Assembly (NCBI RefSeq): GCF_011751745.2
Contig: NZ_CP061170.1
Location: 2,728,001 to 2,792,000, forward strand
Direction of reading: 5' to 3'
Length of the DNA stretch: 64,000 bases
Source of the DNA: Paramicrobacterium fandaimingii
GTDB lineage: Bacteria > Actinomycetota > Actinomycetes > Actinomycetales > Microbacteriaceae
The translations under genes and the position numbers were made by a program. Below, one piece after another: positions 2,253 through 31,407 of the stretch (position 1 is its first letter; the number at the start of each line of letters is the position of its first letter). The notes beneath the pieces are model-generated. The model searched no databases. It worked only from the letters and a program-made list of their open reading frames with translations, and was not told the origin of the DNA.

Positions 2253-3078
2253 CGCACGATACAAGAGGTACAGTCACCTGCGAAGGGCCGGCGGTTGGAG
2301 CATCGCCTCAACTGTCGCCTTCGTCATGGTCTTCGTTGCCGCCGTACTGACGCCCGTCGGACAGTACACGGATGCATTCAGCTTCGGAGTCTTCGACTGG
2401 CTCCCGCCACTCGCGGACCTTCTCCTCTTACGTACCCGAGCTCTCACACCATACGTTCTCTGCGCTGCCGCCGTGGTTCTGGGCGTGGTCGGAGCCCGTC
2501 GGGGACTTCTGCTCGAAGCCGCGGTCGGCACGTGTGCAATCATCGGCGCGTTCGCCGCCAGCAGCATCCTGAAGTATTCCCTGCTCGAGCGCCCCTACTT
2601 TGGAGACTTCGGTTACACCGTCAATACGTACCCGAGCGGACATGTCGCCGTGAGCACGCTTGCCGCCATCATGATCGTGCGGATGCTGCCAGGCAGCCGT
2701 GTTCGCGCAATAGTTCTCTGCCTGGTCGTGGCCGCTGTCACTGCGATCGGCATTGCATCTGTCACAACCATGGCTCATCGTCCGAGCGACGTGCTCGGCG
2801 GTCTCGCTCTTGCCGGAGTCATCGCACCCTGGGCAGCTCGCATGCGCGTTGCATCGCTGAGTCGATTCGGCTCTGTCGCCCATGGGCCAGGCGGCGCGGT
2901 CGCCGCCATCGCAGTGGCACTTACGGCATTGGCACCGCTCGCCGGAGCTGACGTCGGAACGATTGCCGTGTTTTCGACGGCAACACTGGCCACGACATGG
3001 CTTGTCATCTGGGTCGCGACGGCGAGTCCTGCTACGCCGCTTCGTCCCCAGAGAGGTACGCAGAAGCCTGAAGCGTGA
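2239..3078 (+). CDS. PAP2-family membrane phosphatase
   Basis: Integral membrane phosphatase of the PAP2/undecaprenyl-diphosphate type, probably recycling or dephosphorylating the lipid carrier used in polysaccharide assembly. The three PAP2 motifs are present: KYSLLERP, PSGH, and the late motif TTMAHRPSDVLGG. There are about six hydrophobic segments. No ATG precedes the first membrane segment. The best start is TTG at 2239, overlapping the preceding GT4 by 14 nt, with GGAGG close upstream; CTG at 2278 is an alternative. The 3' end overlaps the convergent ABC transporter by 47 nt. Confidence 0.8.
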   Translation: MLTADARYKRYSHLRRAGGWSIASTVAFVMVFVAAVLTPVGQYTDAFSFGVFDWLPPLADLLLLRTRALTPYVLCAAAVVLGVVGARRGLLLEAAVGTCAIIGAFAASSILKYSLLERPYFGDFGYTVNTYPSGHVAVSTLAAIMIVRMLPGSRVRAIVLCLVVAAVTAIGIASVTTMAHRPSDVLGGLALAGVIAPWAARMRVASLSRFGSVAHGPGGAVAAIAVALTALAPLAGADVGTIAVFSTATLATTWLVIWVATASPATPLRPQRGTQKPEA

Positions 3079-4864
3079 ACAATTCTGCGTAGGTTCCGCG
3101 ACGTCGCATCAGTTCGTCGTGCGTCCCCATTTCAACCACGCTTCCGTTGTCCATTACATAGATGCGGTCAGCGTTGCGCACCGTAGAGAAGCGATGGGAG
3201 ATCACGAGCGCGGAGCGCCCGTCAAGTGTGCGGCGAAGCGATGAGAAGAGTTCATACTCAGCTCTCGGGTCAAGCGCCGACGAAGGTTCGTCGAGCACGA
3301 CGAGTCGTGCATCGCGGTAGAAAGCACGAGCAATTGCCACCCTCTGCCATTGCCCGCCGGAGAGATCGCGTCCTCCCTCGAACAGTCGTGTGAGCGGAGT
3401 GTCGTAGCCCTCGGGAAGCGACTCGAGGAAGCCCTCAGCGCCGGCAGCCTCCGCCGCCTCACGCACACGTTGCTCATCTGCAGCGCTTTCCGGGCGGCCG
3501 AATGCAATGTTCGACGTCCCATCCATTGCATAGCGCACAAAATCCTGAAAGATGACAGCAGTGCTGGCGCGCACAGCGCCTGGTGGCAACAATGTCGTGC
3601 TCGTGCCATCCCATGAGATCACTCCCTGATCGAGCGGATAAAGGCCAGCGATCAACTTTGCCAGGGTTGTCTTTCCTGAGCCGTTCTCGCCGACGATGGC
3701 GACGACCTCCCCTTTTTCAATTCGAAGATCGACATCCTTGACAGCGGCAGCTTCACGGCCTGGATAGGTGAAGCTCGCGCCGTCGACCCGGATTTCCTCG
3801 AAATCGAGTTCTGTACCGACAACGTCCGCCTCTGAGTTGCTTGGGGTCAGATCGATGAACTCCCGAAGGTCATCGATGAACAGTCCTGATTCGAAAATCG
3901 ATTGGATGCTCCCCGAGAGTCCTTGAATCTGCGTCGCGAGCATGCGCACTGCAACAAGCGCTGCCCCAGCGGACGCAATATCCAATCCACCGGTGGAGAT
4001 GAGCCACACGAGCACCAGCAAGGTTGCGCCGAGCACTAGTGCCGCGGTCAGCTGGCCAATCACACTGTACGTCGCTCGTTTACGCAAGTGGGAGCGCAAG
4101 TCTGCGAGATAGGTTCCGTAGAGTCGGTCGAAGCGCTCCCTGAGCGTGCGAGCGAGACCGAACGCCCGAATCTCCTTCGCCTCATCGCGGCCCGTGAGCA
4201 GAATAGATGTATAGGTTCTCTGACGAAGAGGCTGCGTCTGCGCCACGTTGAACGCGAACTCAAGCCGGCTCTCACGTCGGCTCGTTATCACAATAGGAAG
4301 ACCGCTGAGCAGCAGCAGAGGCAGAAGCAGAGGGTTGAACGTCGCAAGGGTAATCGCGAGTCCTGCTCCAGCAGCGGCCGTACCGACGACGCCGATGACC
4401 CCATTCGTGACTTGAAAGGGCCGCGTCAATGCGCTCGAGCGCACACGTTCGAGTCGATCGAAGAACTCCGGTGACTCGAAGCGACGCAGCCCCACGCCCG
4501 TTGACACGTCAAGAAGCCGCTGCCACATGGCCCGCGCGACGGTTTCACCGACGTAGCGACCCAGAGACCCCTGAATGGAGCCATTAACAGCAGTGGCCGC
4601 CGTCAGGAGTGCGAGCGTGACGACGGCGAGCACGAGCGAGGCGATCGATGCCGTCGGCGACCCCAAACCCAGGATGCCGCTAAGGACCCACTGCACGGTG
4701 AGTACCTGCGCAGCCAGGAGTCCTGCACCAGCGAGCTGAAGAACGATCAGCCACACGAATGGACCCCGTGCGGCCGACCACACGAGGGAAAGACTGAAGG
4801 CGATGAGCCTATAAAGTCTGCCGACGCTTTTGCGCGCCCTTGGCTGCTGTATTCCGTTCGCCAC
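3032..4864 (-). CDS. ABC exporter (fused permease-ATPase), lasso D candidate
   Basis: A 610-residue half-transporter with an N-terminal six-helix exporter domain (about 15-330) and a C-terminal ATPase (about 345-600). The ATPase shows Walker A GENGSGKTTL, signature LSGGQWQRVAIARA, Walker B LVVLDEPSSALD and switch His in ISHR. It acts in the membrane, probably as a homodimer. It starts divergently 188 bp from the lasso precursor, which is the usual setting for the lasso exporter/immunity protein (D). A role in EPS export is less likely because flippase and polymerase genes are present. The start is GTG at 4864 without a clear ribosome site. Confidence 0.85.
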   Translation of the reverse strand: MANGIQQPRARKSVGRLYRLIAFSLSLVWSAARGPFVWLIVLQLAGAGLLAAQVLTVQWVLSGILGLGSPTASIASLVLAVVTLALLTAATAVNGSIQGSLGRYVGETVARAMWQRLLDVSTGVGLRRFESPEFFDRLERVRSSALTRPFQVTNGVIGVVGTAAAGAGLAITLATFNPLLLPLLLLSGLPIVITSRRESRLEFAFNVAQTQPLRQRTYTSILLTGRDEAKEIRAFGLARTLRERFDRLYGTYLADLRSHLRKRATYSVIGQLTAALVLGATLLVLVWLISTGGLDIASAGAALVAVRMLATQIQGLSGSIQSIFESGLFIDDLREFIDLTPSNSEADVVGTELDFEEIRVDGASFTYPGREAAAVKDVDLRIEKGEVVAIVGENGSGKTTLAKLIAGLYPLDQGVISWDGTSTTLLPPGAVRASTAVIFQDFVRYAMDGTSNIAFGRPESAADEQRVREAAEAAGAEGFLESLPEGYDTPLTRLFEGGRDLSGGQWQRVAIARAFYRDARLVVLDEPSSALDPRAEYELFSSLRRTLDGRSALVISHRFSTVRNADRIYVMDNGSVVEMGTHDELMRRRGTYAELFTLQASAYLSGDEAA

Positions 4865-4966
4865 ATGGCGAGCATAACCACGTGACGCGCCTTAACCCGA
4901 GGGCCAAGGGCGCATTCACCACCCCCAATTCGAGGGTTCTTCACGTTTTTGTCGTGTTTTTTATTG

Positions 4967-4979
4967 TGAGCGATTCTCA
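4967..4979. promoter_or_regulatory. TGAG-N5-CTCA palindrome in the lasso promoter region
   Basis: TGAG-CGATT-CTCA followed by GCTTTGC lies in the divergent region between the ABC exporter and the lasso precursor, 74 bp before the precursor start. The tail closely matches the copy at 16314 (CTCAGCTTAGC). It implies co-regulation of the lasso genes with the EPS genes. A weaker C-rich/G-rich pair (CCCCC-N7-GGG) lies at 4922-4936. Confidence 0.5.
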
Positions 4980-5052: not shown

Positions 5053-5190
5053 ATGGCATACGAGTCACCACGAATTAGCGAAGTCGGACGTTTCTCCAGT
5101 GTTACCCGCGGCTCATGGAAACCGGGTAGTGAGCGGGACAACAGCAACTGGTGGGACTGGTTCGGCGACCCGCCCAAGGGATCTCGCTAA
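5053..5190 (+). CDS. Lasso peptide precursor (A)
   Basis: A 45-residue precursor. The leader (residues 1-19, MAYESPRISEVGRFSSVTR) carries the actinobacterial lasso recognition pattern Y3-x2-P6-x-I8-x3-G12 and Thr18 at position -2 of the cleavage site. The predicted 26-residue core begins GSWKPGSE and ends DPPKGSR. Gly1 and Glu8 would form an 8-residue macrolactam ring. Trp14, Trp15, Trp17 and Phe18 of the core are bulky candidates for locking the tail. The penultimate core residue is Ser25, a possible target of the kinase encoded at 6856. The ribosome site AAGGAAG (5038-5044) supports this ATG; longer in-frame versions would start inside the promoter region. Confidence 0.88.
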   Translation: MAYESPRISEVGRFSSVTRGSWKPGSERDNSNWWDWFGDPPKGSR

Positions 5191-5250
5191 CACAGCAAGC
5201 GGGCAGCGGGCGGCAGAGTTGCCGTCCGCTGCGCACGTGATTGGTACACA

Positions 5251-6411
5251 ATGGACACTTTCGATCGCCTCACTCGCTCCGAGCAAACTCTCGGCATGCC
5301 TGAAGCGGCAACTCCGCCGCGTTCGGGGATCCCCCGGCGTGAGGGATCGGCCGAATCGCCGGTAGACGCGCTGAAAGCAATTATCGGTCCGCTGGTGTCG
5401 GGGCGAACCACGTACGTGCTCTTCTCTGGAGGTCGCGATTCATCCGCGGTTCTCGCTGTGGCGACGCGCGTCGCGCGAGAACTCGGGGCAGACGACCCGA
5501 TCCCTCTCATTGGTCGGCACAACGACGCTCCCGACTCAAACGAGACTGAATGGCAAGATCTCGTGCTCTCACATCTGAAGCTGACACAGACGATAGTTCG
5601 ACGGTTCACCGGAGAGCAGTCACTGCTCAGTTCGCGGAGCGAAGAGAGCCTCCGGAGCACTGGCCTCCTCTGGCCGCCGAGTTTGCATGTCCAGGCCGCA
5701 TACGTGGACGATCTCCCTCTCGGCAACGTGCTCAGCGGCGAGGGGGGAGACTTCGTCATCGGCCCTCGGCGAATCTCGCGGACCGCAGATGCCATTCGTG
5801 CTCGGCGTCCACGCGAAACTCTGCGCGCAGCCTACGGCGCACTTGCCGTGTCCCGCTGGCGCCGCACAGCGGCCGACAACCTGCAGATAGCCTCGCCGTG
5901 GCTGACGCCAGAGGGCCGGACGATGCTCACTGATGTCATTCAGCGCATGACGCCAGAGCCGCTGAGCTGGTCTGCGGGCCTTCGGTCAATGAGTGAATCG
6001 CGCCCCGCGCGCATGGCAAACACAAACTTTCGCGGAGTCTTCGATGTCGCCGGTTTTCATTGCGAGAATCCGCTTGAGCACCCGAGATTCGTCTCGGCGC
6101 TCTCAGCCACGGCGCATTACTGGGGGCCGGGAAATCGGACTCAGATGATGCGCTCGCTGTTCGGGAATCTGTTGCCGGATCGTGTCTTGTCGCGGCAGAC
6201 GAAGGCCTCATTCAACGACGTGCGCTGGACGCACAGAGAACGGGACTTCGCCCGAGAGTGGAGCGGCAACGGAGTCGATTCGCGGTTCATTGATCATGAC
6301 AAGTTGCGTGACGCGTGGCTCTCGGACATTCCCCCCGTTCTTTCAGATGTGCATCTGCACGCGGCATGGCTCAGCGACAACAACATTCCGAGCGTGCCTC
6401 ATGTCGCTTAG
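5251..6411 (+). CDS. Lasso macrolactam synthetase (C), glutaminase domain absent
   Basis: Asparagine-synthetase-like ATP-dependent enzyme predicted to adenylate the Glu8 side chain and close the ring onto Gly1. The PP-loop LFSGGRDSSAV (about residue 58) and LSGEGGDFVIGPRR (about 165) are clear. The C-terminal LPDRVLSRQTKASFNDV motif is typical of lasso cyclases. It has 386 residues, whereas family members are usually 500-650 with an N-terminal class II glutamine-amidotransferase-like domain; here about 50 unrelated residues precede the PP-loop. The ATG lies 60 nt after the precursor stop, and no upstream frame restores the missing domain. It overlaps the B2 gene by 11 nt. Confidence 0.85.
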   Translation: MDTFDRLTRSEQTLGMPEAATPPRSGIPRREGSAESPVDALKAIIGPLVSGRTTYVLFSGGRDSSAVLAVATRVARELGADDPIPLIGRHNDAPDSNETEWQDLVLSHLKLTQTIVRRFTGEQSLLSSRSEESLRSTGLLWPPSLHVQAAYVDDLPLGNVLSGEGGDFVIGPRRISRTADAIRARRPRETLRAAYGALAVSRWRRTAADNLQIASPWLTPEGRTMLTDVIQRMTPEPLSWSAGLRSMSESRPARMANTNFRGVFDVAGFHCENPLEHPRFVSALSATAHYWGPGNRTQMMRSLFGNLLPDRVLSRQTKASFNDVRWTHRERDFAREWSGNGVDSRFIDHDKLRDAWLSDIPPVLSDVHLHAAWLSDNNIPSVPHVA

Positions 6412-6859
6412 ATATCGCGTGCGCACGGTGCTCGCGTATCCTCCGCGACGATGGGCAGATCTCGTCGAGGCCGTGGCCGTCGCGATTCGCGTCGAGTCCG
6501 CCCTGCGACGGGGCGGCGTCGCCCGGGCGGCCCGTGTCGGTCATGTGCACGTACTCATGGACGGCATTGCGGCACCGACTGCGCCCCTCGCGGAGGTAAA
6601 CCTCACGCCGCGCGAACGGGAGAAGCTCGACACCGCTTGGCGTCTGCTTCGGCAGCCTCCGTTTAATGGCACCTGTCTTCGCCGGGCGATTGTCGGCGGC
6701 CACTTTCTGCGTGACCGCACCCCGATTCTGCGCATCGGAGTATCGAAAGAAAACGGAGTCGTTGCCGCTCACGCGTGGGTTGAAATCGACGGGGTCAGTC
6801 TCGACCCCGACGGCTCCGAGCGCTTTTCTGTGTTGACGGCGCCGACGAAGGGATCATGA
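6401..6859 (+). CDS. Lasso leader peptidase (B2)
   Basis: Stand-alone transglutaminase-like cysteine protease of the lasso B2 family (152 residues), predicted to remove the 19-residue leader with an RRE partner (B1). The catalytic Cys92 (in FNGTCLRRA), His124 and Asp130 (in AHAWVEIDG) form the expected triad. Its N-terminal half is short and contains no RRE domain, so a separate B1 protein is needed; the PqqD-like gene at 11928 is the only candidate here. The ATG at 6401 overlaps the cyclase gene, and the stop overlaps the kinase start (ATGA). Confidence 0.87.
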   Translation: MSLRYRVRTVLAYPPRRWADLVEAVAVAIRVESALRRGGVARAARVGHVHVLMDGIAAPTAPLAEVNLTPREREKLDTAWRLLRQPPFNGTCLRRAIVGGHFLRDRTPILRIGVSKENGVVAAHAWVEIDGVSLDPDGSERFSVLTAPTKGS

Positions 6860-7785
6860 TGAGCCAGACCATGCTCTATGGGCTAGGAATCGAAACTGAC
6901 TTCGACCTCCACGACGCCGGAGCGTCCGATCTCGAGAAGACGGACGTGCGGGTGCGAACCGGACCAGACCTTCAGACGAATGTGCCCCAGCCGTCGGGCG
7001 AACGACTCCTCGATTTCGAAACGAACGAGCCTTGGTACACGCTTGTCAGAACAGCACAGGGGGACTTGCACTTTCGGGTGCACGGCGTCTGCGACTATCT
7101 GATCTCATCCGATTTCAGAGACGTCGAGCTTCGCATGAATGCTGGCGTGGAACGTGGCATGGACGGCGTGATGACTGTGGGTGCTTTAGTGTCGCTCCTG
7201 TTATACCTCAAGGGCACCTCCGTGTTTCACGGCAGCGCCGTCGACGTAGGCGGGCGAGGCATTGCCTTCGTGGGGCACTCCGGGCAGGGCAAGACGACGA
7301 TGGCGACGCTGTTCTGCGCTGAGGGGGCATCCGTCATCACCGACGACGTTCTCGTTGTCGACAGCGCCCAGATGCGCCCGCGCATTCGTCGAGGCTCACG
7401 CGAACTGCGACTCCGCTCAGGGATCGAGGAGCTCGCCGATCGAGCCGCGGGTGGCGCTTTTCGCGTGAGCGCAGATGCCCGTCGGGTGATCGCCCCGCGC
7501 CACTCCGACGCTGCAGACGTGCCGCTCCACGCCATTGTGGTTCCGACTCCGACGCGAGATGGCTCGCCCATGCGCTTCGAGCGACTCGGAGAAAAAGACG
7601 CACTTCTCGCCCTACTTGGCTTTCCGCGGCTCATGGGCTGGCGTGACCAGAGCGTGCTCTCACGCGTTTTCAAGGATGCCTCAGTGCTTGCCGCACGCGT
7701 TCCTGTACTTCTCGGTCATATTCCCTGGGGCCCCCCGTTTCCCGAGGGAATAACAACGGCGTTGCTCACCACGGTGGACGCATGA
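6856..7785 (+). CDS. HPr-kinase-like protein, lasso peptide kinase candidate
   Basis: A 309-residue protein whose C-terminal half resembles HPr serine kinase/phosphorylase. It has HGSAV (125-129), P-loop GHSGQGKTT (140-148) and an acidic DDVLVVD stretch (163-169). Such kinases in lasso clusters (paeninodin type) phosphorylate a serine at the precursor C-terminus. Here the core ends in Ser-Arg, so the target would be the penultimate Ser or would need prior trimming. There is no PTS or HPr gene nearby. It is coupled by ATGA to B2 upstream and to the nucleotidyltransferase downstream. Confidence 0.78.
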   Translation: MMSQTMLYGLGIETDFDLHDAGASDLEKTDVRVRTGPDLQTNVPQPSGERLLDFETNEPWYTLVRTAQGDLHFRVHGVCDYLISSDFRDVELRMNAGVERGMDGVMTVGALVSLLLYLKGTSVFHGSAVDVGGRGIAFVGHSGQGKTTMATLFCAEGASVITDDVLVVDSAQMRPRIRRGSRELRLRSGIEELADRAAGGAFRVSADARRVIAPRHSDAADVPLHAIVVPTPTRDGSPMRFERLGEKDALLALLGFPRLMGWRDQSVLSRVFKDASVLAARVPVLLGHIPWGPPFPEGITTALLTTVDA

Positions 7786-8975
7786 GCGTCAACCGTCTCG
7801 CTCTGGCAGCGTTGCTCGTCGAGAGCGCCGCGGGAACCAACTCCGGAGCGCCGATACGCGCGCACCTCGACGGACGTGAGCTGATGACCGCGGGGCGTAT
7901 GCACCGCATTCTTCCCGCCCTGCGCCGGCGGGTTCTCGGCCTCCCCGAAGCAGCGGACTGGTTGCGCACTCTCGACGCCGTTCGCCACCAGCAGCTGATG
8001 CGGCAGATGCAGGCCGGCAACGACCTGCGGCATGTCGCCCGGGGTTTTGCAGATGCCGGAATTCTCTGGGCCGTGTCGAAGGGGCCCGTTCTCAGCGACG
8101 CAGTTTGGCCGCACGCGGATATGCGCGAGTTCACCGACGTTGACGTATTCGTGCATCCCGCTCACTTCGCTGCCGCACTGACCGTGCTCGAAGCATCCGG
8201 GTTCTCGCTTGTCGATCGCAACTGGCCAGAGATTCGACGGCTCGCTCGCGCCGAGGTCGCACTGGCCGGGCCCTCTGGGCTGCCCCTCGACCTGCACTGG
8301 GACATCTCTGTGACGCCGCGAGCGCGCAGCACCTTCCACATCGATCTGCCGACCATGCTGTCTCGCACACGCCACCTCGCTCTCGGTTCCGGAGTCACCG
8401 TGCCGGTCTTCGATCCGACCGATCTTCTCCTCCACGTCGCGTTCCATGCAGCGCAGAACGGGGCGAACCGGCTGATGTGGATCGCCGATGTCTTTCACTG
8501 CGCGCAGAGTGCGGCAATCGACTGGCCGCGCTTGACTGACGATGCACGGCGCGCACGCGTAGCCACGCCCGTAGCGATGGTCATCGAGCGGGCCGAGCGC
8601 ACGTTCGGCGCCTCATTTGCCCTGACGCAACGACTGCGCCGCTGCGCCTCGGCATCGCCTTCTGGTCTCACCGCGCGGTACCGCGAGACATCGCACCCCT
8701 TTCCTGGTCTGCCCCATGACCGCGCCATCTCAGGGCTCGAGTTCTCGAGCGCACGCGACAGCGCGATTGCCTCTCTTGGGTCTGCCTTCTGGCAGTGGGC
8801 AGACGTGCGACGCATCGAAGCCCGTGAGCGCCGGAAGGGGGCCGGGGGCAACCCTCTCGACGAGAATATTCCGGATGCTGCAGCACGCCGCGGCTATCTG
8901 CACGACGTACTGGTTGCCACTCCCGCCGCATCGCAGAGCTTGTCGCCGCTCAGAGCAACTGGCCCGAGTGCGTAA
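7782..8975 (+). CDS. Family-5 nucleotidyltransferase (lasso tailoring)
   Basis: A 397-residue protein of the NTP_transf_5 group. The diagnostic stretch is SKGPVLSDAVWPHADMREFTDVDVFV (about residues 95-120; Lys, Arg and the Asp pair are the key positions), followed by DLHWDI near residue 170. In some lasso clusters with kinases (pseudomycoidin), a homologous protein has been reported to add sugar to the phosphate. The activity here is therefore inferred, not shown. It is the last gene of the plus-strand lasso operon and converges on the PIG-L gene 18 bp away. Confidence 0.75.
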   Translation: MSVNRLALAALLVESAAGTNSGAPIRAHLDGRELMTAGRMHRILPALRRRVLGLPEAADWLRTLDAVRHQQLMRQMQAGNDLRHVARGFADAGILWAVSKGPVLSDAVWPHADMREFTDVDVFVHPAHFAAALTVLEASGFSLVDRNWPEIRRLARAEVALAGPSGLPLDLHWDISVTPRARSTFHIDLPTMLSRTRHLALGSGVTVPVFDPTDLLLHVAFHAAQNGANRLMWIADVFHCAQSAAIDWPRLTDDARRARVATPVAMVIERAERTFGASFALTQRLRRCASASPSGLTARYRETSHPFPGLPHDRAISGLEFSSARDSAIASLGSAFWQWADVRRIEARERRKGAGGNPLDENIPDAAARRGYLHDVLVATPAASQSLSPLRATGPSA

Positions 8976-11860: not shown

Positions 11861-11873
11861 TGAGCTACCCTCA
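11861..11873. promoter_or_regulatory. TGAG-N5-CTCA palindrome upstream of the aminotransferase
   Basis: TGAG-CTACC-CTCA followed by CTTAGGGGG lies in the 106-bp gap between the PqqD-like gene and the aminotransferase. It suggests that the aminotransferase-cytidylyltransferase-deacetylase unit has its own promoter in the same regulon as the other copies. Confidence 0.5.
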
Positions 11874-11927: not shown

Positions 11928-12185
11928 TCAGTCCTCGAGCAGGAGCTTCTTCTCGCGAAGTCGTTGCACGAACGCCTGCGCATCGCGCTCGGCAATCATG
12001 GCGTCGATCCCATACTCCGCGGAGAGCGCGCTAACGAGATCAGCCATTGTGCGGTCTTCACGTAAAGACTTTGCCAGCAACGCTCCTGAGACGTTGGTGG
12101 TCAGGTACACGGACGACTCCATGTCGAGAATCACCAACTCGCCGTCAACGTCCTGCCAGGTCACTCCGTCAGTTCGCAACTTCAT
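11928..12185 (-). CDS. PqqD-family RRE protein, lasso B1 candidate
   Basis: An 85-residue PqqD-like RiPP recognition element. It begins MKLRTDGVTWQDVDGELVIL and then has VYLTTNVSGALLAKSL and a helical C-terminus. In actinobacterial lasso pathways a separate B1 protein of this size binds the leader Y-x2-P motif and delivers it to B2. No PQQ genes are present. The ATG at 12185 has ribosome site AAGGAG. The gene overlaps the upstream GT4 by 17 nt, an unusual partner for a B1 gene. It could alternatively serve an unrecognised second peptide pathway. Confidence 0.8.
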   Translation of the reverse strand: MKLRTDGVTWQDVDGELVILDMESSVYLTTNVSGALLAKSLREDRTMADLVSALSAEYGIDAMIAERDAQAFVQRLREKKLLLED

Positions 12186-13404
12186 GTTTACTCCTTGTTC
12201 GTTGTGATGGTCTCTGTCGCCGTGCTTCGCTCCACGCCTGAGACACAACATCGGCCGTATGCGAGATCGCGTACCGATCACTCACGTCGGCGCGTGCTCG
12301 CTGAGCCCGCCGTATCGTCGCTTTTGGATCATCGAGAACGGCGACGATCGCCGACGCTAACGCCGCGGCGTTGTCGGGGCGCACGAGCACACCGAGATCT
12401 GTAAATCGCCATCCGACGTCCGGCTCGGCAGTTGTGACCGAGCCGGCATCCAAGATCTCAACGACCCCGCCAGACTCTGTCGCGATGACCGGTACCGAGG
12501 CGGCAATCGCTTCGACGACGATCTGACCGAACGGCTCTGGCATCGGAGAAGCGTGCACAAGGATGCTCAATCGCCCAATTTGGGCTGGCACGTCGCGCAC
12601 CCAGCCGGTGAATTCCATCCGGTCTGCGACTGCCGATTCCCTGGCTCGTTCACGCACCGCAGCCTCGTAGTTTTGCTCGCCAAAGAGCGCTGTGCCGATC
12701 ACGCGGTATGCGACATCGGGATGCGTCTGCGCAACGCGAATTGCTGCTTCGACGAAGATGTGCTGTCCCTTCGTCGGGCTTACGCGGCCGACGATGCCGA
12801 CGACGCGTGGCGAGTCTGGAAGCATGGTGACAAATGCATCATCTGCGATCCCTGGATACGCGATAACGGCCCGGCGCCGTGCCCACCGCGGAATCGTTTC
12901 GAGGGTCGATCGAGAATTCACGATGATCTTGCGAGGCCCGAGGACAGCGATGGTTCGCATCATGATGAGAAGTCCCCTCGGCAGGTAGTCCGACGTGAGC
13001 CTGTCGTGTAGGTTCCACACCCAGGCTCGCCCAGAGATCGGAGCGGCCACTACAGCAAGGGCTGCCGACTTGAGCGAGTTCGCGACGACGAGATCTGCCC
13101 CGCTTTCTCGAATAGCGGAGCGGAGTCGCACGATGAAGTCGGCGGCAGCGGTGAGAAGTGAAAACACGTGCCGCACGTCTGAAAGTTGACCACGGGATGC
13201 TGTCGCCATGCGTGCGGACGCGAGACGAACGGTCGTCGGTACTCCGGCGACAGCGAGAGCATCTTCGAGAGGACCGTGTGCGAAGAGCAAAACGTGAACG
13301 TCGTCACCACGTTCACGGAGTCTCCGCACGAGTCTGACGAGCGCAAGCTCGGCGCCACCTTCCTGCGCAGTGTGACTCAGCACAAGTGTGCGACCCTGGC
13401 CCAT
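12169..13404 (-). CDS. Family 4 glycosyltransferase
   Basis: GT-B glycosyltransferase of 411 residues. It starts MGQGRTLVLSHTAQEGGAEL with a strong AAGGAGG site 6 nt upstream. The C-terminal domain has VGRVSPTKGQHIFVEAA and the acidic PMPEPFGQIVVEAIA region. It is the first gene of a minus-strand set with the PqqD-like protein, aminotransferase, cytidylyltransferase and deacetylase. It may therefore glycosylate the lasso peptide rather than the polysaccharide; this is inference from position only. Confidence 0.87.
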   Translation of the reverse strand: MGQGRTLVLSHTAQEGGAELALVRLVRRLRERGDDVHVLLFAHGPLEDALAVAGVPTTVRLASARMATASRGQLSDVRHVFSLLTAAADFIVRLRSAIRESGADLVVANSLKSAALAVVAAPISGRAWVWNLHDRLTSDYLPRGLLIMMRTIAVLGPRKIIVNSRSTLETIPRWARRRAVIAYPGIADDAFVTMLPDSPRVVGIVGRVSPTKGQHIFVEAAIRVAQTHPDVAYRVIGTALFGEQNYEAAVRERARESAVADRMEFTGWVRDVPAQIGRLSILVHASPMPEPFGQIVVEAIAASVPVIATESGGVVEILDAGSVTTAEPDVGWRFTDLGVLVRPDNAAALASAIVAVLDDPKATIRRAQRARADVSDRYAISHTADVVSQAWSEARRQRPSQRTRSKHEVAN

Positions 13405-13454
13405 GTGCCCTCCTTGTGGGCTCACACTAGCAATCGACTACGCACTATGGTTGT

Positions 13455-16221: not shown

Positions 16222-16234
16222 TGAGACATGCTCA
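16222..16234. promoter_or_regulatory. TGAG-N5-CTCA palindrome near the flippase gene
   Basis: TGAG-ACATG-CTCA lies 36 bp upstream of the flippase GTG, in the 298-bp divergent region 16187-16484. With the copy at 16314 it brackets the region, which fits control of both directions by one factor. Confidence 0.5.
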
Positions 16235-16313: not shown

Positions 16314-16326
16314 TGAGCATTACTCA
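16314..16326. promoter_or_regulatory. TGAG-N5-CTCA palindrome upstream of the long EPS operon
   Basis: TGAG-CATTA-CTCA followed by GCTTAGCC lies 159 bp before the GT4-GT2 gene. Its flanks match the lasso-promoter copy at 4967 (both continue GCTT). It is probably the operator for the seven-gene operon starting at 16485. Confidence 0.5.
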
Positions 16327-22115: not shown

Positions 22116-24322
22116 CATTCACCGAAATTCTCACTGTCATCTGGCGACGCAAGTGGATCATCATCATCGTGACGGTCCTCGCATCAGCGATCGCCATCAC
22201 CTACCTCCAACGACAGACGCCAAACTTCGAGTCATCAACGACGCTGCGAATCAGCCCGTTAATGACCGAGGCCGTCAACACAGGAATCCTCGCCGGTCAC
22301 CCGGTCGACGTAGACCCCTCAGTTGCGACAACCCCTGTCGTGCTCAGCGAGGCTGAAAAGCAGCTCGGAACTCCGAAGGGATCGTTGGCCGGCACTGTCT
22401 CGCAGGCAGCAGTCGAGACTCCGTCAGACACGACGGCAACGTTCAAGATCACCGCGCAAGCTGGCGACCCGAAGACGTCCCAACAGAGCGCTGCTGCAGC
22501 TGCGGCCGCGTACTCGGCCTACCTCGACACCGTCGTGGCCTCAACGCAGAAGGCGCTTGCGGAACAGCTAGGCGAGGTATCGGACGAAGCAAAGAGCTAC
22601 CAAAACGACGTTGACAAAGACCCTGCCGATCAACTCGCCCAGACCAATCTGACAGCGGCGCTCGCTCAGATAAATGGAATCAATGCTTCGATTACGTCGT
22701 TGCAGACGGCTGGACCATCAGCGACCGTCACTGCACCGGCGGGCACAGGAGCAACGTTGAATCCGAGCACTCTGACCGTCGCAGGTGTTGCGCTTGCGTC
22801 CGGCCTTCTCGCGGGTCTTGGTCTCGCTCTCGCGCGGGACTACCTCGATTCGCGTGTGCGTCGCACAGACGAACTGGAGCGGGCTACAAATTTGCCCGTG
22901 CTCGGGCAGCTCGCAAACGACAGGCGGGCGAAACGTGTGACTGGATTTCTTCCCGCCGAGAACAGCGAGTCTTCCCCGCTGAGTGAAGGTCTTCGGGCGC
23001 TTCGCACGACATTGCAAGTCGCACTTCCGGCCAAAGGGAGCGTCCTCGTTGTCACAAGTGTGGAGCCCGGAGATGGCAAGACGTTTGTCTCGGCGAACCT
23101 CGCGGCGTCATGGGCACGTACGGGACGCTCCGTTGTGCTGGTCGCGGGCGACTTACGTCGCCCGGGTCTTGACACCTATTTTCCTGATAGCTGCACCGGC
23201 CCCGGCCTTGGCGGACTTCTCGCGGCTCCGCGGGACTTGCTCACTTTTCCAGAGGTCAGCGACATCGAGGCCGCACTTCAACCGACATCGATTGACGGCT
23301 TGCGTGTGCTTCCACCGGGCACGCTTATGGACGACCCAGCAGACGCAATTGCCACTCCCCGCATGATGCGCGTACTCAGTGCCCTGAGCGACCGTGCCGA
23401 TATCGTCATCGTCGACACACCACCGTCTCTCGCACTCGCCGATGCCTCCGCCATAGCCTCGCTTGCCGATGGAACGATAGTGATCGCCACGATGAACCAC
23501 ACGCGGTTGCCACTGCTCTCGCACGTCGTCGCGACATTAAGAGCGAACAGCGCGACGGTGATCGGCACTGTTGCGAATAGATCGAAGCACAAGCTCCCCC
23601 GCAGTTACTCCGCGTACTACCTCGCGGAGTCAATACCACAGCCTGCGCTTGAACGCTCGTCGAATCGTTCCGTCGATGGGGGAAAATTATCACGAGTCGA
23701 CCACATTGAGCGTTCGCCCCGCGCTATGACTCCGGGGCGAGATCGGGTGCTCGTCGTCTGCACAGCCAATGAAAGTCGCTCTCCGTTCGCCGCGGCGCTG
23801 CTCCTCGCCACTGCGAACGAGCATGCACTTGAGGTGGACTCTGCCGGAGTTGAGGCGACTACTGGTCGCCCCGCATCACAGTCGGCCATCACGCATGCGT
23901 CAGAGCTGGGACTCGACTTGAGCGACCACGTGAGCGCGCAGGTAGATCCGGCTTCGCTTGACACCTATGATCTGATCTTGACACTCACCCGGGAGCACGC
24001 CCGCATGCTGCTTGCAACGACACCCGATATCGCACCGCGCCTGTTCACCATCAGACAGTTCACGCGTTGGCTCGACGCAAACGAACGCCCCGCTGGCGTA
24101 ACACTCGGCACATGGCTTGATGACGAGTCAGATCAATCGATTCTGGACTTCCTCGGAGATAACCCTGCCGACGACATCGAAGATCCGACCGGACGAACCA
24201 CCGCACGGTGGAAGACGATGATCGCGCACCTCGACGAGGCGATCGCCGGTATCGCGGCGGGCCTGTATCCGAGATACTCATCGCTCCTGCCCGTCCCCGC
24301 GCAGCGCACACGACGGCCGTGA
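22112..24322 (+). CDS. Wzz/BY-kinase fused to LMW protein tyrosine phosphatase
   Basis: A 736-residue three-part regulator of polysaccharide chain length. A Wzz-like membrane domain occupies 1-245 with helices at about 15-31 and 221-241. The BY-kinase domain spans about 285-490, with Walker A EPGDGKT (318-324), A' motif VAGDLRRPGL and Walker B IVIVDTPP (431-438). A short tyrosine cluster (Tyr499, 502, 503) follows. The C-terminus (about 545-720) is a low-molecular-weight phosphatase with C550-x5-R556-S and Asp691-Pro. Kinase and phosphatase are normally separate proteins. The GTG start overlaps the upstream stop, and the frame is continuous through the junction. Confidence 0.9.
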   Translation: MTFTEILTVIWRRKWIIIIVTVLASAIAITYLQRQTPNFESSTTLRISPLMTEAVNTGILAGHPVDVDPSVATTPVVLSEAEKQLGTPKGSLAGTVSQAAVETPSDTTATFKITAQAGDPKTSQQSAAAAAAAYSAYLDTVVASTQKALAEQLGEVSDEAKSYQNDVDKDPADQLAQTNLTAALAQINGINASITSLQTAGPSATVTAPAGTGATLNPSTLTVAGVALASGLLAGLGLALARDYLDSRVRRTDELERATNLPVLGQLANDRRAKRVTGFLPAENSESSPLSEGLRALRTTLQVALPAKGSVLVVTSVEPGDGKTFVSANLAASWARTGRSVVLVAGDLRRPGLDTYFPDSCTGPGLGGLLAAPRDLLTFPEVSDIEAALQPTSIDGLRVLPPGTLMDDPADAIATPRMMRVLSALSDRADIVIVDTPPSLALADASAIASLADGTIVIATMNHTRLPLLSHVVATLRANSATVIGTVANRSKHKLPRSYSAYYLAESIPQPALERSSNRSVDGGKLSRVDHIERSPRAMTPGRDRVLVVCTANESRSPFAAALLLATANEHALEVDSAGVEATTGRPASQSAITHASELGLDLSDHVSAQVDPASLDTYDLILTLTREHARMLLATTPDIAPRLFTIRQFTRWLDANERPAGVTLGTWLDDESDQSILDFLGDNPADDIEDPTGRTTARWKTMIAHLDEAIAGIAAGLYPRYSSLLPVPAQRTRRP

Positions 24323-26484: not shown

Positions 26485-29400
26485 TCACTCAGGCGCCCAC
26501 GCCGATATCGCCGCGACAGAAACGACCTCGTCTGATGCCGTCTGCACGCCCATGAACGGCGGCGGAAGCCCCCCGACGATTCCCGAATAGTTGACGTCGA
26601 GCACCCGGGTGCCGCGCACGGTCGTCCAGGGAATGGTGATGCGCACAGCGGTGACGGAGACCGCGTCGAACTCGACGAAACGCACTCGGTGCCAGAACTG
26701 GTCTTCCACGGACGCCACTGTGTGCCACTCGCCACTCTCTGTGCGCACCGAGACCTCATAGGTGCGCAGTGCGGTCTCGCAGCATTCCATGCTGCCGCTT
26801 GCCACCGCTACGCGGTTGATCGTTGTCGCCTCAGCGAGCGTCACCGTTGCCGACGGCTTCTCATCGAGCTCACCGTCAACGACGCCAGAGCGCCAGGGCA
26901 GAGAGGGGTTTACCGTGCCCGAGGTGATGATCTGCGCGTCGCTACCCTCCGCCGTCGAGGTTGCCGTCACCTCGGCTCCCGCGAGAACGTCACCGCCGAA
27001 CGCCTCCACCGGCGTGATCGACACCGGTTCACCCTCCGATGACGCGAAGAATTGGGGACTTCCCGTGATCGTCACCTCCGAGCGCCCGTCCTCAAGCTCA
27101 ATCACGCTCTGCGCGCCGTACTGATCGGTAACCGTCACAGCGGGAGCCTCGCTTGAGAGATTCGCGCGCACGCGTGCCTCATCGGTCCATGCCGCAGTGA
27201 CGCCGGCATCGTCTGCGAAGCGGAAAGCGTAGGTGAAGGGGATGCCGGTTTCAACGACGCTCGGCTCGCCCAGAGCCGCCAGTTTGTGCGAAACGACGGC
27301 GAACGCCAGGGCCCCGGGCTTCACATGCGACTGATATTGAATGAGCGACCAACTGAGATTGTTCTCGCCCCAGCCGCCCTCGCTGAAGAAGTACGTCCAT
27401 CCGGCAATGTGCTCGTGCTGGTACCAGAGCAGCTTGCGCGCGACTTTGGCCCCCTGCGACCAATACGGCAGAGTCCCGTCCGACGTCCACCCCGTCTCCG
27501 TGTCCCAGATCGGCAGCTCGCCGCATCCATGCCCGACCACGTTTCTGAAGCTGTCGTACCCGGAACCGGAGGCAGCGAAGCCCTCCTCTTCCCACGACCG
27601 GTTCCACCCCGTGTACGGGTGAACGCCGAGGGCGTCGACGGCCTCGCAGAGCTGTGTCGACGCCGAATCCGCCCACCAGTCTTCGGCGAAGCCGAGGGTG
27701 TTTCCGGCAATCACCCGGGCGTGAGAATTTGCCTCATGAGCGGCATGCGCAAAGGGAATATCGACGCGTTTCGAGAAGTCGGCCCCCGAGTCGAAGCTGA
27801 TGTTCGGCTCATTCCACGGCGACCACAGCGTGATCGCCGATGCCTGCTCGGCAAACTCCGCGACGATGAATCGTGCCCATCCGCCCCAGGTCTCCGCCTC
27901 AACTGCAGCGCGCTCGGCGTCGCCGTTCTGGCCCACCTGAACGATCAGATCCACGTCGTGATCGGCCGCGTACTCGGCGGCCGCGCGCACCTGCTCGAAC
28001 GCCTCGGTCGGCGTGGGTTCGCCGTCTGGCGCCCCCGGAAGGCCAGACCAGTCGATTGCGTCGCTGCTCGGTTTTCCGCTCGGGTCGGCGATGAGCCGCG
28101 AAACATCGAGCTGCAGACGGAAGCTGCCGATTCCCAGTCGGTCAGCGAGCTGCACGCCGCGCATTGGCTCCGGCCCGCCCCACCCTGCTCCCGGCTCGAG
28201 GTCATCGAGGTTCAGGTCGGCGCCCTCGGCCCCGACGCTGTACCGAAAGCATGTCGCAGAGAGAGTCTCGCCGCTGCTGCTGTCGACAAGTCTGACGCTC
28301 ACTTCGTACGGTCCGGGGACGCTCGTCGGAACCTCCAACGGCGTCTCGCCTCCCCCGATCTTCGGTTCGACCGAGCGCTCGGTCTGCCGAATGGGGTCGG
28401 CGAGAAGAGGATCTCCCCGAACGCTGTAGCGCACGCTAACATCCTCTGCCGCCTGTTCGCCGTCAAGCATCCCCCACCCGGATTCAAAGCGCAGGTGCAC
28501 GCCAAGAGTCTCGCCCCAGTCAGCGTGATTGAACACGGCATCACTGACAACGCCAACGCCGATGCCGAGCCGGGCGATGACGGGATCGTTCAGCGCCTTG
28601 TAGCTGATCGGCATTGCCAGCATCGCGGCCATATCGTCGTCCGTGAGCTTCCTCACATGCTCCTCACCATCAACGGAGACAGAGAGCCAGTAGCTGCCGT
28701 CGTCATGGACGATCGCGCCGGTCATGCTTGGCGACGCCTGACTGTCGCCGAGCCAGACTCCCCGTTGAACCCCGATCTGATCGATCCAGGTGAGCCCCTC
28801 GCCCGCCTCATACACGAGATAGCCATCGCCGCCTGGCGCGGGAACCACGGTGCTCGGTCGGGTGAGCGCCGGTGTCTGCGCCGCGCTGTCGCCGTCGCTC
28901 TCGGCCATGGCATACGGCACGCTCATCACCGTCTTCTGCGACGCGAGGTCGTCGACCGTCAGCCGAACAGTTGCATCGTCAATCGGCTCCAACCCCGTCA
29001 CCAGGCTTCCGGATGCTCCGAAGATCACGCTCGGCAGATCGCGATTCACCCCGAGCGACGTGCCGTCCTCTCGAAAGACGTGCACCACCGACCCACGCTC
29101 GCCAACCAGCAGAGCGGGCTCACCATCGAGATCGGGAACCCAGGTGACTCCGTGAAGGTCGAGTGGATGCCCTTGCGTCACTGAGCTCTCGGGCACGGGA
29201 AAGCTCGAGATCTGCGTGCCCTCTGCGTCGAATACCGCAATGTCCCGTCGGTGCTTGTACGAGTCAATCGCGTAGATCAGCCCGTCGGGCGACACAGCGA
29301 CAGAGCCGTTGTTGTGCGGTTCGCGCGTCGCGCGGTCGACGTCAACGACAAACTCGCCGCTCGTGTCGCCGCTGTCGTTCAATCGTGTGAAAACACGTGT

Positions 29401-29748
29401 GCCATCCTGCTTCTGCGACTCGACGAGCAGTCCGCCATCGATTGCATGCAGGCCGACGAGATACGTCGACTCCGGTGACGGCGCCCGCACGTCGACTCCG
29501 ATCGAAACGGGATCATCCGATTTCGGACGATCGGCGACGACGGCGGCCAGCTTGTCGCCGGGCATGCCGCAGACCTCGACGGCGGGATCAAGGTCAAGCG
29601 ATGCGACAGCGCGCGAGCCGGGCTGCTCGTCGTCGACGAAGGCGACAGCGACCGCGCCCGTCACGGCAAGTGTCAGAACGATCGCGCCGACAATGTATGC
29701 CGCACGTCTGCGTGACGGCTTTCGCTGGCGTCTCGTCGTACCGTTCAT
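26485..29748 (-). CDS. Large exported glycoside-hydrolase-like protein
   Basis: A 1087-residue protein anchored or exported by an N-terminal hydrophobic helix (about 19-38) after a basic stretch. Residues about 60-400 look like a beta-propeller/NHL-type repeat region (SPDGLIYAID and similar). About 520-850 is a TIM-barrel of GH clan A type with acid/base Glu in WSPWNEPNISF and candidate nucleophile Glu in IWDTETGW. The C-terminal about 150 residues look like a discoidin-type carbohydrate-binding domain. It may trim or release the exopolysaccharide outside the cell. The exact GH family (GH39 or GH5-like) is uncertain. Twelve nt separate it from the upstream priming transferase. Confidence 0.75.
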   Translation of the reverse strand: MNGTTRRQRKPSRRRAAYIVGAIVLTLAVTGAVAVAFVDDEQPGSRAVASLDLDPAVEVCGMPGDKLAAVVADRPKSDDPVSIGVDVRAPSPESTYLVGLHAIDGGLLVESQKQDGTRVFTRLNDSGDTSGEFVVDVDRATREPHNNGSVAVSPDGLIYAIDSYKHRRDIAVFDAEGTQISSFPVPESSVTQGHPLDLHGVTWVPDLDGEPALLVGERGSVVHVFREDGTSLGVNRDLPSVIFGASGSLVTGLEPIDDATVRLTVDDLASQKTVMSVPYAMAESDGDSAAQTPALTRPSTVVPAPGGDGYLVYEAGEGLTWIDQIGVQRGVWLGDSQASPSMTGAIVHDDGSYWLSVSVDGEEHVRKLTDDDMAAMLAMPISYKALNDPVIARLGIGVGVVSDAVFNHADWGETLGVHLRFESGWGMLDGEQAAEDVSVRYSVRGDPLLADPIRQTERSVEPKIGGGETPLEVPTSVPGPYEVSVRLVDSSSGETLSATCFRYSVGAEGADLNLDDLEPGAGWGGPEPMRGVQLADRLGIGSFRLQLDVSRLIADPSGKPSSDAIDWSGLPGAPDGEPTPTEAFEQVRAAAEYAADHDVDLIVQVGQNGDAERAAVEAETWGGWARFIVAEFAEQASAITLWSPWNEPNISFDSGADFSKRVDIPFAHAAHEANSHARVIAGNTLGFAEDWWADSASTQLCEAVDALGVHPYTGWNRSWEEEGFAASGSGYDSFRNVVGHGCGELPIWDTETGWTSDGTLPYWSQGAKVARKLLWYQHEHIAGWTYFFSEGGWGENNLSWSLIQYQSHVKPGALAFAVVSHKLAALGEPSVVETGIPFTYAFRFADDAGVTAAWTDEARVRANLSSEAPAVTVTDQYGAQSVIELEDGRSEVTITGSPQFFASSEGEPVSITPVEAFGGDVLAGAEVTATSTAEGSDAQIITSGTVNPSLPWRSGVVDGELDEKPSATVTLAEATTINRVAVASGSMECCETALRTYEVSVRTESGEWHTVASVEDQFWHRVRFVEFDAVSVTAVRITIPWTTVRGTRVLDVNYSGIVGGLPPPFMGVQTASDEVVSVAAISAWAPE

Positions 29749-29760
29749 CAGGCTGTCGGC

Positions 29761-31266
29761 TCAGTAGGCGCCGACGGGCCGGAACAGCACTCGAATCGTT
29801 CGCCAGACAATCGACAGGTCTGTGTACAGCGTCCAGTTCTCGACGTAATAGAGGTCGAGGCGAACGCTCTCGTCCCAGTCCAGATCGGAGCGACCGTTCA
29901 CTTGCCACATCCCGGTGATTCCCGGCCGAATGTACAGTCGACGGTGAACGTGCCGCTCGTACTTCTGCACCTCGCGCTGCAGCGGCGGTCGTGGCCCGAC
30001 AACGCTCATCTCGCCGCGCAAGACGTTGATGAACTGAGGAAGCTCGTCGAGAGAGTGCGCGCGAAGGAACGCGCCGACGCGCGTCACCCGCGGGTCTTGT
30101 TTCAGCTTGAACAGCACGCCGTTTCCCTCGCTGTGTGCGAGCAGATTCTCGAGGTCTTCCTCTGCTGTGTTCACCATCGAGCGAAACTTGAGCATTGAGA
30201 AGGTCTGCCCGTCTTTGCCGACGCGTTCTTGTTTGAAGAACGCCGGGCCGGCGCTGTCCATGCGAACGGCGAGCGCGATGACGAGCATCACCGGTGCGAG
30301 CACAGCAACGGCACCTGCGGACACCACGATGTCGAATGCCCGCTTCATGACGAAGCGCACACCCGCGTACCGGGCGAGATCGACGTGAAGAAGGGGCAGC
30401 CCGTCGACGGGGCGAAATTGGATGCGGCTGCCGGCGACGTTCGTCAATCTCGGGGCGACGACAAGCGATGTGCCCTGCGCCTCCAGCTTCCAGCTCAGAT
30501 CTCGCATGTAATCGGTGTTGTCTCTGCTCGTGCTCGCCACGATGACCGAGTCGGCATCAAGGCGCCCGACCGCATCGGCAACGCGATCGGGGTGCGACAC
30601 GATCGGCACGGTTCCGCTGAGTCCGGAAACAGGGACCTCGGCATCATCGAACACCGCGGCGCCGACCACGCTGAACGCTGCGCTGCTCGACCGTTCAAGC
30701 TCGCGAGCGACGTAGGAGACATCGGCGCGATCCCCCACAACGATCGTGCGAGAGAGGTAGTTTCCGTATGTGCGCTGATGGTTGAGCCAGCGTCGCCAAC
30801 TCCACCGGCTGGCGAGCAGTCCGACGGTTCCGGCGGGCAGGGCCACGAGGAACATGGCGCGCGGTGGGGCGACCGGAACCAGAACGAAGGCCGTTGCGGC
30901 GGCGCCGAAGTACATCACCGATGCGTTCAGAACTCGCTTGTACTCGCGCGTGCCGATTCCCAGGAGCGGTGTGCTTCGCGTGCGGAAGGCCGCGAGCGCG
31001 AGGAGCCAGCCAACGCTCATGAGCACCGGGCCTGCGACGCGACTTTCGACGAGTGCCGCTGCGCTGAAGCTTGCTTCTGTCGCCACAGCCACGGCCACCG
31101 CCATCGCGAGGGCGATGACGAGTGCGTCGGTCACGAGCAGTCGAATCTTGAGTCGCCGCGTCCAGGAGACAGCGGGCGCGACGGCGCGGGCAATCTCGGA
31201 GCCGACATCGAACGCCGGACGAAATACTGACGCTGGGGCGGTGAACCTGGCATCGATTCGACTCAT
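29761..31266 (-). CDS. Priming polyprenyl-phosphate glycosylphosphotransferase
   Basis: A 501-residue initiating enzyme that transfers sugar 1-phosphate to undecaprenyl phosphate in the membrane. Four N-terminal membrane helices and a CoA-binding-like middle region precede the C-terminal catalytic domain (about 300-501). That domain has FKQERVGKDGQTFSMLKFRSM, LRAHSLDELPQFINVLRGEM, VGPRPPL and YIRPGITGMWQVNGRSD. ATG at 31266 with GGAGGGC upstream. First gene of the 31266-25349 operon; its promoter region holds a TGAG-N5-CTCA copy. Confidence 0.93.
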   Translation of the reverse strand: MSRIDARFTAPASVFRPAFDVGSEIARAVAPAVSWTRRLKIRLLVTDALVIALAMAVAVAVATEASFSAAALVESRVAGPVLMSVGWLLALAAFRTRSTPLLGIGTREYKRVLNASVMYFGAAATAFVLVPVAPPRAMFLVALPAGTVGLLASRWSWRRWLNHQRTYGNYLSRTIVVGDRADVSYVARELERSSSAAFSVVGAAVFDDAEVPVSGLSGTVPIVSHPDRVADAVGRLDADSVIVASTSRDNTDYMRDLSWKLEAQGTSLVVAPRLTNVAGSRIQFRPVDGLPLLHVDLARYAGVRFVMKRAFDIVVSAGAVAVLAPVMLVIALAVRMDSAGPAFFKQERVGKDGQTFSMLKFRSMVNTAEEDLENLLAHSEGNGVLFKLKQDPRVTRVGAFLRAHSLDELPQFINVLRGEMSVVGPRPPLQREVQKYERHVHRRLYIRPGITGMWQVNGRSDLDWDESVRLDLYYVENWTLYTDLSIVWRTIRVLFRPVGAY

Positions 31267-31367: not shown

Positions 31368-31407
31368 TGAGCATCCCTCAAGTTCTCTAATACTAGAGGG
31401 ATCCTCA
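31368..31407. promoter_or_regulatory. TGAG-N5-CTCA palindrome with nested inverted repeats
   Basis: TGAG-CATCC-CTCA (31368-31380) lies 101 bp upstream of the priming transferase. It overlaps an ATCCCTC/GAGGGAT inverted repeat (31373-31379 and 31396-31402). A degenerate second copy, AGAG-GGATC-CTCA, ends at 31407. The tandem arrangement 27 bp apart would suit cooperative binding. Confidence 0.5.

Follow-up and report, generated by a model that had tools for sequence, protein, structure and literature searches.

What does a lasso-peptide gene cluster make when it lies among genes for an exopolysaccharide (EPS), and does the peptide have anything to do with the matrix? This question is raised by a 64,000-nucleotide stretch of the Paramicrobacterium fandaimingii genome (assembly GCF_011751745.2, NZ_CP061170.1, forward-strand positions 2,728,001 to 2,792,000), here called the window, from a genome consisting of a single contig of 3.62 Mb. 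Judged as a whole, the sequence is likely to encode a working lasso-peptide cluster that belongs to an actinobacterial family associated with capsules, with the peptide ring closing on the aspartate at core position 10 (Asp10). The gene set, the catalytic residues, the conservation of the locus, the enrichment of a promoter palindrome and the conservation of Asp10 were all obtained from the sequence.

Gene content of the cluster

A preliminary description of the window had placed five open reading frames, A-C-B2-K-N, on the + strand at 5053-8975 and had called them a lasso-peptide cluster. Their order and coordinates were confirmed, as was the identity of the cluster, with A, C and B2 matching NF033521, PF00733 and NF033537 above cut-off. 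The gene set as first described was incomplete, since a discrete leader-binding protein (B1) and the adjacent ABC exporter, both on the - strand, had been overlooked. The genes concerned are the following.

3032-4864, - strand: ABC exporter, MsbA-like, candidate lasso D, divergent from A
5053-5190, + strand: A, 45-residue lasso precursor, leader 5053-5109 and core 5110-5187, identified by NF033521 and by homologues in relatives
5131-5133 and 5137-5139, within A: codons of core residues Glu8 and Asp10
5251-6411, + strand: C, lasso cyclase, asparagine-synthetase-like (PF00733), motif SGGRDSS at residues 59-65
6401-6859, + strand: B2, leader peptidase (NF033537, PF13471), with Cys92, His124 and Asp135
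6856-7785, + strand: K, HprK-like kinase, with His125, Lys146, Asp163 and Asp164
7782-8975, + strand: N, PF14907 nucleotidyltransferase, with invariant Asp119, Asp121 and Asp170
11928-12185, - strand: B1, discrete RRE/PqqD leader-binding protein (PF05402, 54.8 bits, cut-off 23.4)
12169-13425, - strand: GT4 glycosyltransferase (PF00534) overlapping B1

From C onward, through B2, K and N, stops and starts overlap. The precursor A matches the lasso-leader model NF033521 with 28.8 bits (cut-off 19) and contains the leader pattern Y3-x2-P6, the threonine at -2, Gly1 and Glu8, all as described before; Asp10, which had gone unmentioned, is also present in the core. C matches PF00733 with 38.4 bits (cut-off 21), while NF033561, the one cyclase-specific NCBIfam model that matches it, scores far under its cut-off. 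For B2, the scores are 48.5 bits for NF033537 (cut-off 33) and 44.9 bits for PF13471. The catalytic motifs are intact, as had been claimed: cyclases were compared in alignments of 7 and of 25 sequences and in a tree of 44, and SGGRDSS is invariant across the 25, and among 30 aligned B2 proteins Cys92 and His124 are kept in all and Asp135 in 27.

The possibility that B1 is absent was ruled out, as it was found on the opposite strand at a distance of 5.5 kb beyond C, where its gene overlaps the 3′ end of the preceding GT4 glycosyltransferase gene in a sugar operon running opposite to A-N. B1 is the sole PqqD match in the source genome and matches the solved lasso RRE structures TbiB1 and TfuB1. 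It falls under the cut-offs of the lasso PqqD models, with 49.6 bits against a cut-off of 70 for NF033530.

The two remaining genes point to modification of the peptide. N matches PF14907 with 130.9 bits (cut-off 31.2), and Asp119, Asp121 and Asp170 are present in 17/17 aligned members, arranged as in active pol-beta-type nucleotidyltransferases, and we take them to be the catalytic triad; a sequence search for a relative of N with a solved structure found none. K is weakly HprK-like, with 27 bits for PF07475 (cut-off 33.3), 29.7 bits for TIGR04355 (also under cut-off) and a weak match to the solved HPr kinase 1ko7 (E 0.045). Among 36 aligned kinases, His125, Lys146 and Asp164 are each kept in 34 and Asp163 in all 36, and we equate these four residues with the His-Lys-Asp-Asp motif that a review (PMC9266682) gives for lasso kinases. 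Two points speak against this assignment of K and its substrate, namely that its scores lie beneath its family cut-offs and that an Arg follows the presumed target Ser here, when the kinases studied so far are reported to act on a C-terminal Ser.

A set of this kind could also make a linear phosphopeptide like the linear polyphosphorylated peptides (LPPs) of Bacilli, with the cyclase a relic. According to PMC13381572 (Nature Communications, May 2026), LPP clusters share with the window a YxxP leader, a discrete RRE, an HprK-like kinase, a nucleoside triphosphate transferase, an MsbA-like exporter and a capsule setting; a few relatives of A, moreover, have cores lacking any acid at positions 7-10. 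The same source describes LPPs as made with a signal-peptidase-like protease and without a cyclase, whereas the window has both B2 and an intact C with the invariant SGGRDSS motif, and we consider a linear product extremely unlikely.

The ring residue

Core residues were numbered from the second residue past the leader Thr. When the 45-residue precursor alone was used as the query, it matched only itself; alignment profiles recovered homologues, and 114 distinct cores were collected from two profile searches and the loci, some few being spurious open reading frames admitted by the core-picking pattern. Of these cores, 58 end in Ser-Arg, among them that of the window (Gly-Ser-Arg, not a C-terminal Ser), and 47 end in Ser.

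The preliminary description had implied an eight-residue ring closed at Glu8, a residue that is present in the window and whose spacing from Gly1 suits known lassos. The relatives speak against it. In the class to which the window core belongs, with the tail W-x-D...GDP (n = 15), Asp10 is found in 15/15 and an acid at position 8 in 3/15; among the Ser-Arg cores, Asp10 is present in 56/58 and an acid at 8 in only 5, with 16 having an acid at 9 and 11 at 7. Glu8 is therefore probably wrong as the ring residue, and a ring closed there is very unlikely. The Trp-rich tail, which had been singled out as distinctive, is shared by all 15 cores of the class and was dismissed as a unique feature.

With Glu8 set aside, two ways of closing the ring remain to be weighed. 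No Asp or Glu is found at positions 7-9 in 33 of the 58 Ser-Arg cores, 32 of which carry Asp10. For such cores, therefore, the choice is between a ten-residue ring and cleavage by B2 behind the Gly, each of which would break a stated rule for lasso peptides. If B2 cut after the conserved Gly, leaving Thr at -3 and starting the core at residue 2, the same Asp would close a nine-residue ring. Such a ring stays inside the known range of 7-9, and metanodin, with Asn as its first residue (PMC12670498), indicates that first residues beyond Gly, Ala, Ser and Cys are possible. The new first residue would, however, be Lys in 11, Arg in 9, Gln in 8, Asp in 7 and Ser in 5 of the 58 cores, when the first residues reported for lassos are Gly, Cys, Ser, Ala and now Asn (PMC12670498). 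Residue 1 in our numbering is Gly in 58/58, and the Ser-ending cores, with the same leader spacing, begin with Gly (30) or Ala (15) in 45/47. We prefer the ten-residue ring because Gly1 is invariant and the residue after it is free, and regard the nine-residue ring as unlikely. A ten-residue ring appears feasible, since the fusilassin/fuscanodin enzymes are reported to have yielded an analogue with such a ring in vitro (PMC8498205).

In the tree of 44 cyclases, which contains no precursor letters, the clade of the window (support 99/94) serves Asp10 precursors in 10/10 cases. Among the 47 Ser-ending cores, Asp or Glu is found at position 9 in 33 and Asp10 in 13. Georgenia satyanarayanai has two cyclases about 8.6 kb apart, one of each type, each beside the matching precursor. 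Only two cyclase columns separate Asp10 from Asp9 types, Leu57 and Trp326 in window numbering; both are fixed in 10/10 Asp10-type cyclases and each occurs in 2/25 of the Asp9 type, making these residues candidates for ring-size determinants.

Several observations weigh against closure at Asp10. Asp10 occurs once outside the window's cyclase clade (L046, Acidimicrobiaceae) as well as in the 13 Ser-ending cores; among the 58 Ser-Arg cores, Asp9 is found in one and another lacks any acid at 7-10, and an acid lies somewhere at 7-9 in 25, the window core itself keeping Glu8. The Ser-Arg group is a biased sample, having been gathered by profiles of mostly Asp10 precursors. Characterised rings have 7, 8 or 9 residues according to a 2026 review (PMC13352647), as in older reviews (PMC7549694, PMC8498205), and a natural ten-residue ring was not found in the literature searched, most subscription journals lying outside its coverage.

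Three precursors, P0041, P0047 and P0084, have lasso-type leaders and cores of Gly, Asn, Arg and His repeats with no acid at 7-10. Ring closure of the lasso type seems out of reach for them, and their products may be linear phosphopeptides.

The capsule locus and its shared palindrome

Glycosyltransferase, flippase, chain-length and sugar-transferase genes stand on both sides of the cluster. The cyclase was found in 7/299 family genomes searched, the window's included; these seven take in 4/5 genomes of the genus. In 7/7 the cluster lies within an EPS locus, where an ABC transporter accompanies C, B2, K and N, and the surrounding genes include glycosyltransferases and other EPS functions. Each of the seven genomes has a single PqqD and a single PF13471 protein over cut-off, both in that locus, with B1 about 2.6 to 20.5 kb from C and on the opposite strand in 6/7 (both are on the + strand in G126). 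A GT4-type gene adjoins B1 in 5/7, and sugar-nucleotidyltransferase-like and PIG-L neighbours were present in 6/7 within the stretches examined. G199, a member of the genus without the cyclase, has no PqqD and no PF13471 match; a partial PF14907 match (41.6 bits) stands beside a Wzz-type gene.

A contig scan with a single cyclase sequence found no relatives, and a scan with the cyclase alignment found 38 loci, several of them contig fragments, one labelled Acidobacteriota and the others with actinobacterial names. K or N was present in the flank of 35/38 and an EPS marker in 23/38. In named loci of the window clade (n = 7), B1 is opposite to C in 5 and not within 10 kb in 2; in named loci with Asp9 cores (n = 23), it is on the same strand as C in 19, on both strands in L044 and opposite in 3. 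Several distant actinobacterial B2 loci (among L064-L098) have K, N, B1 or B2 and no match to the cyclase profile, possibly pointing to other cyclases or to cyclase-free pathways.

The EPS setting could result from hitch-hiking, through shared mobility or a genome niche, with the peptide an ordinary antibacterial unrelated to the matrix. Related clusters in Bacilli are reported to have been extensively transferred horizontally (PMC13381572), in keeping with such an origin. Against it stands the phylum-wide sample, in which 54/396 genomes had a B2 match: EPS markers were found at 19/29 B2 loci bearing K or N and at 1/11 without them (Fisher P = 0.003). These 40 loci were taken from the top of a list of 51 B2 loci scoring over the cut-off, from which the window's own was excluded, with G344 skipped. 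The comparison is favoured by EPS profiles built in part from K/N-bearing loci, and is subject to short contigs and to L075, counted as negative, having a weak K match of 56 bits.

A further observation concerns the promoter of A. The preliminary description had noted that it shares a palindrome with the EPS promoters, which we found to be TGAG-N5-CTCA, and 7 of the 37 copies in the genome fall at this locus, all between open reading frames taken as genes.

1009-1021: between two glycosyltransferase genes
1080-1092: upstream of the glycosyltransferase at 1134-2252
4967-4979: promoter region of A, ending 73 bases before A
11861-11873: between B1 and an aminotransferase gene
16222-16234: between flippase and glycosyltransferase genes
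16314-16326: second copy in the same flippase/glycosyltransferase gap
31368-31380: upstream of the sugar transferase at 29761-31266 (- strand; PF02397)

All seven lie within the window's first 32 kb, where 0.33 copies are expected (P = 3e-8), a stretch that was picked after the sites were seen. The 37 genomic copies are fewer than the 43 of a reversed control, and the palindrome is thus not generally frequent. In six relatives, the copies in about 40 kb around the cyclase, relative to the whole genome, number 10/38, 8/30, 3/20, 3/21, 3/11 and 3/20, an enrichment in every case (P 1.6e-3 to 7.5e-12, with the genome sizes of five relatives rounded). An exact copy precedes A in 5/7 genomes (the window, G085, G148, G001 and G126); less in accord with a shared operator, the copies at this place in G053 and G069 are degenerate. 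In G199, which lacks the lasso genes, four copies lie in 20 kb around one Wzz-type gene. None was found in 40 kb surrounding a second locus of that genome with Wzz and sugar-transferase genes, a point on the side of hitch-hiking, and none in 20 kb left of the window. Enrichment at all seven cyclase-bearing loci argues against hitch-hiking, which, though it keeps real weight, seems to us doubtful as the explanation of the EPS setting. We read the palindrome as an operator-like element of the EPS genes that may serve the lasso promoter too, and infer from this setting that peptide and matrix may be produced together.

The promoter of A also contains a second conserved element, CCCCCAATTCGAGGGTT, at 4922-4938, identical in the window, G085 and G148 (three species of the genus). 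This is a C-rich/G-rich palindrome, with weaker matches near 1022 and 16296, and it adjoins some TGAG-N5-CTCA sites here as well as in related EPS loci.

Other features of the surrounding locus were recorded. The protein encoded at 22118-24322 (+ strand) is a Wzz chain-length protein whose single chain also contains an ATPase part and, at the C-terminus, a low-molecular-weight phosphotyrosine phosphatase domain (PF01451). A predicted protein of 1087 residues with an F5/8 type C domain is encoded at 26485-29748 (- strand), and relatives of it lie near two distant lasso loci, L043 and L044. To the left of the window (L099, 15640-18501) are genes for a C-methyltransferase (PF08484), a 3,5-epimerase (PF00908) and a 4,6-dehydratase-like protein (PF16363), and with these sugar-nucleotide genes the EPS locus continues past the window edge.

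Proposed pathway and relation to known systems

For the product itself, we infer every enzymatic step, the export, the co-regulation and the threading as follows. A would be transcribed along with the EPS genes through the shared palindromic operator, and B1, expressed from the neighbouring sugar operon, would present the YxxP leader. B2 would then cleave two residues past the leader Thr, and C would activate the side chain of an Asp and couple it to the new N-terminal Gly; closure would fall on Asp10 rather than Glu8, and with cleavage just ahead of Gly1 the ring would have ten residues. K would phosphorylate the conserved Ser near the C-terminus, and the divergent ABC transporter would export the product. 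For pseudomycoidin, reviews report that K phosphorylates the C-terminal Ser and that N is required for an added hexose; by analogy, N may add a hexose or a nucleotide to the phosphate here.

The closest systems described are the paeninodin-like lassos of Bacillota, such as paeninodin and pseudomycoidin, whose clusters comprise A, C, K, B1, B2, D and in some cases N, the enzymes seen here, and share the ABC exporter, HprK-like kinase, nucleotidyltransferase and capsule loci (PMC13381572). That paper reports paeninodin-type clusters and linear relatives inside Bacilli capsule loci, treats the roles of these clusters as unknown, and states that paeninodins and LPPs are confined to Bacillota. The window differs in having a leader Tyr (YESP), when paeninodin RREs are reported to favour Trp (PMC13381572). 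It differs further in its core, which with 57 other distinct cores ends in Ser-Arg rather than Ser and carries Asp10, in a B1 outside the operon on the other strand, and in a host of the Actinomycetota. The paeninodin family proper is marked by a Trp-containing leader motif and a Bacillota host, neither of which is found here. Fusilassin/fuscanodin of Thermobifida fusca resembles the window system in its split B1/B2 and its actinobacterial RRE, the match to TfuB1. That system is not known to have a kinase or nucleotidyltransferase; its natural ring has nine residues.

A title and abstract search of the literature on lasso peptides with EPS, capsule or Microbacteriaceae found no actinobacterial cluster of this kind. 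That such a cluster exists is ordinary, and so, since 2026, is its place among capsule genes, both being already known in kind. What is new, as far as sequence comparison indicates, is a group of Asp10 cores served by a separate clade of cyclases, a B1 encoded away from the operon, a palindrome common to the lasso and EPS genes, and the probable correction of the ring residue.

The set extends the capsule association to Actinomycetota, with Tyr leaders, Ser-Arg core ends, B1 off the operon and a shared operator-like palindrome. If Asp10 closes the ring, the accepted natural lasso range of 7-9 residues would be too narrow, and mining rules that seek an acid within that range would overlook this group or give it the wrong ring residue, as with the 33/58 Ser-Arg cores noted above. 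The shared operator would also offer a direct handle on the role of capsule-associated phosphorylated lasso peptides, because the genes for the peptide and those for the matrix could be tracked, and deleted, jointly.

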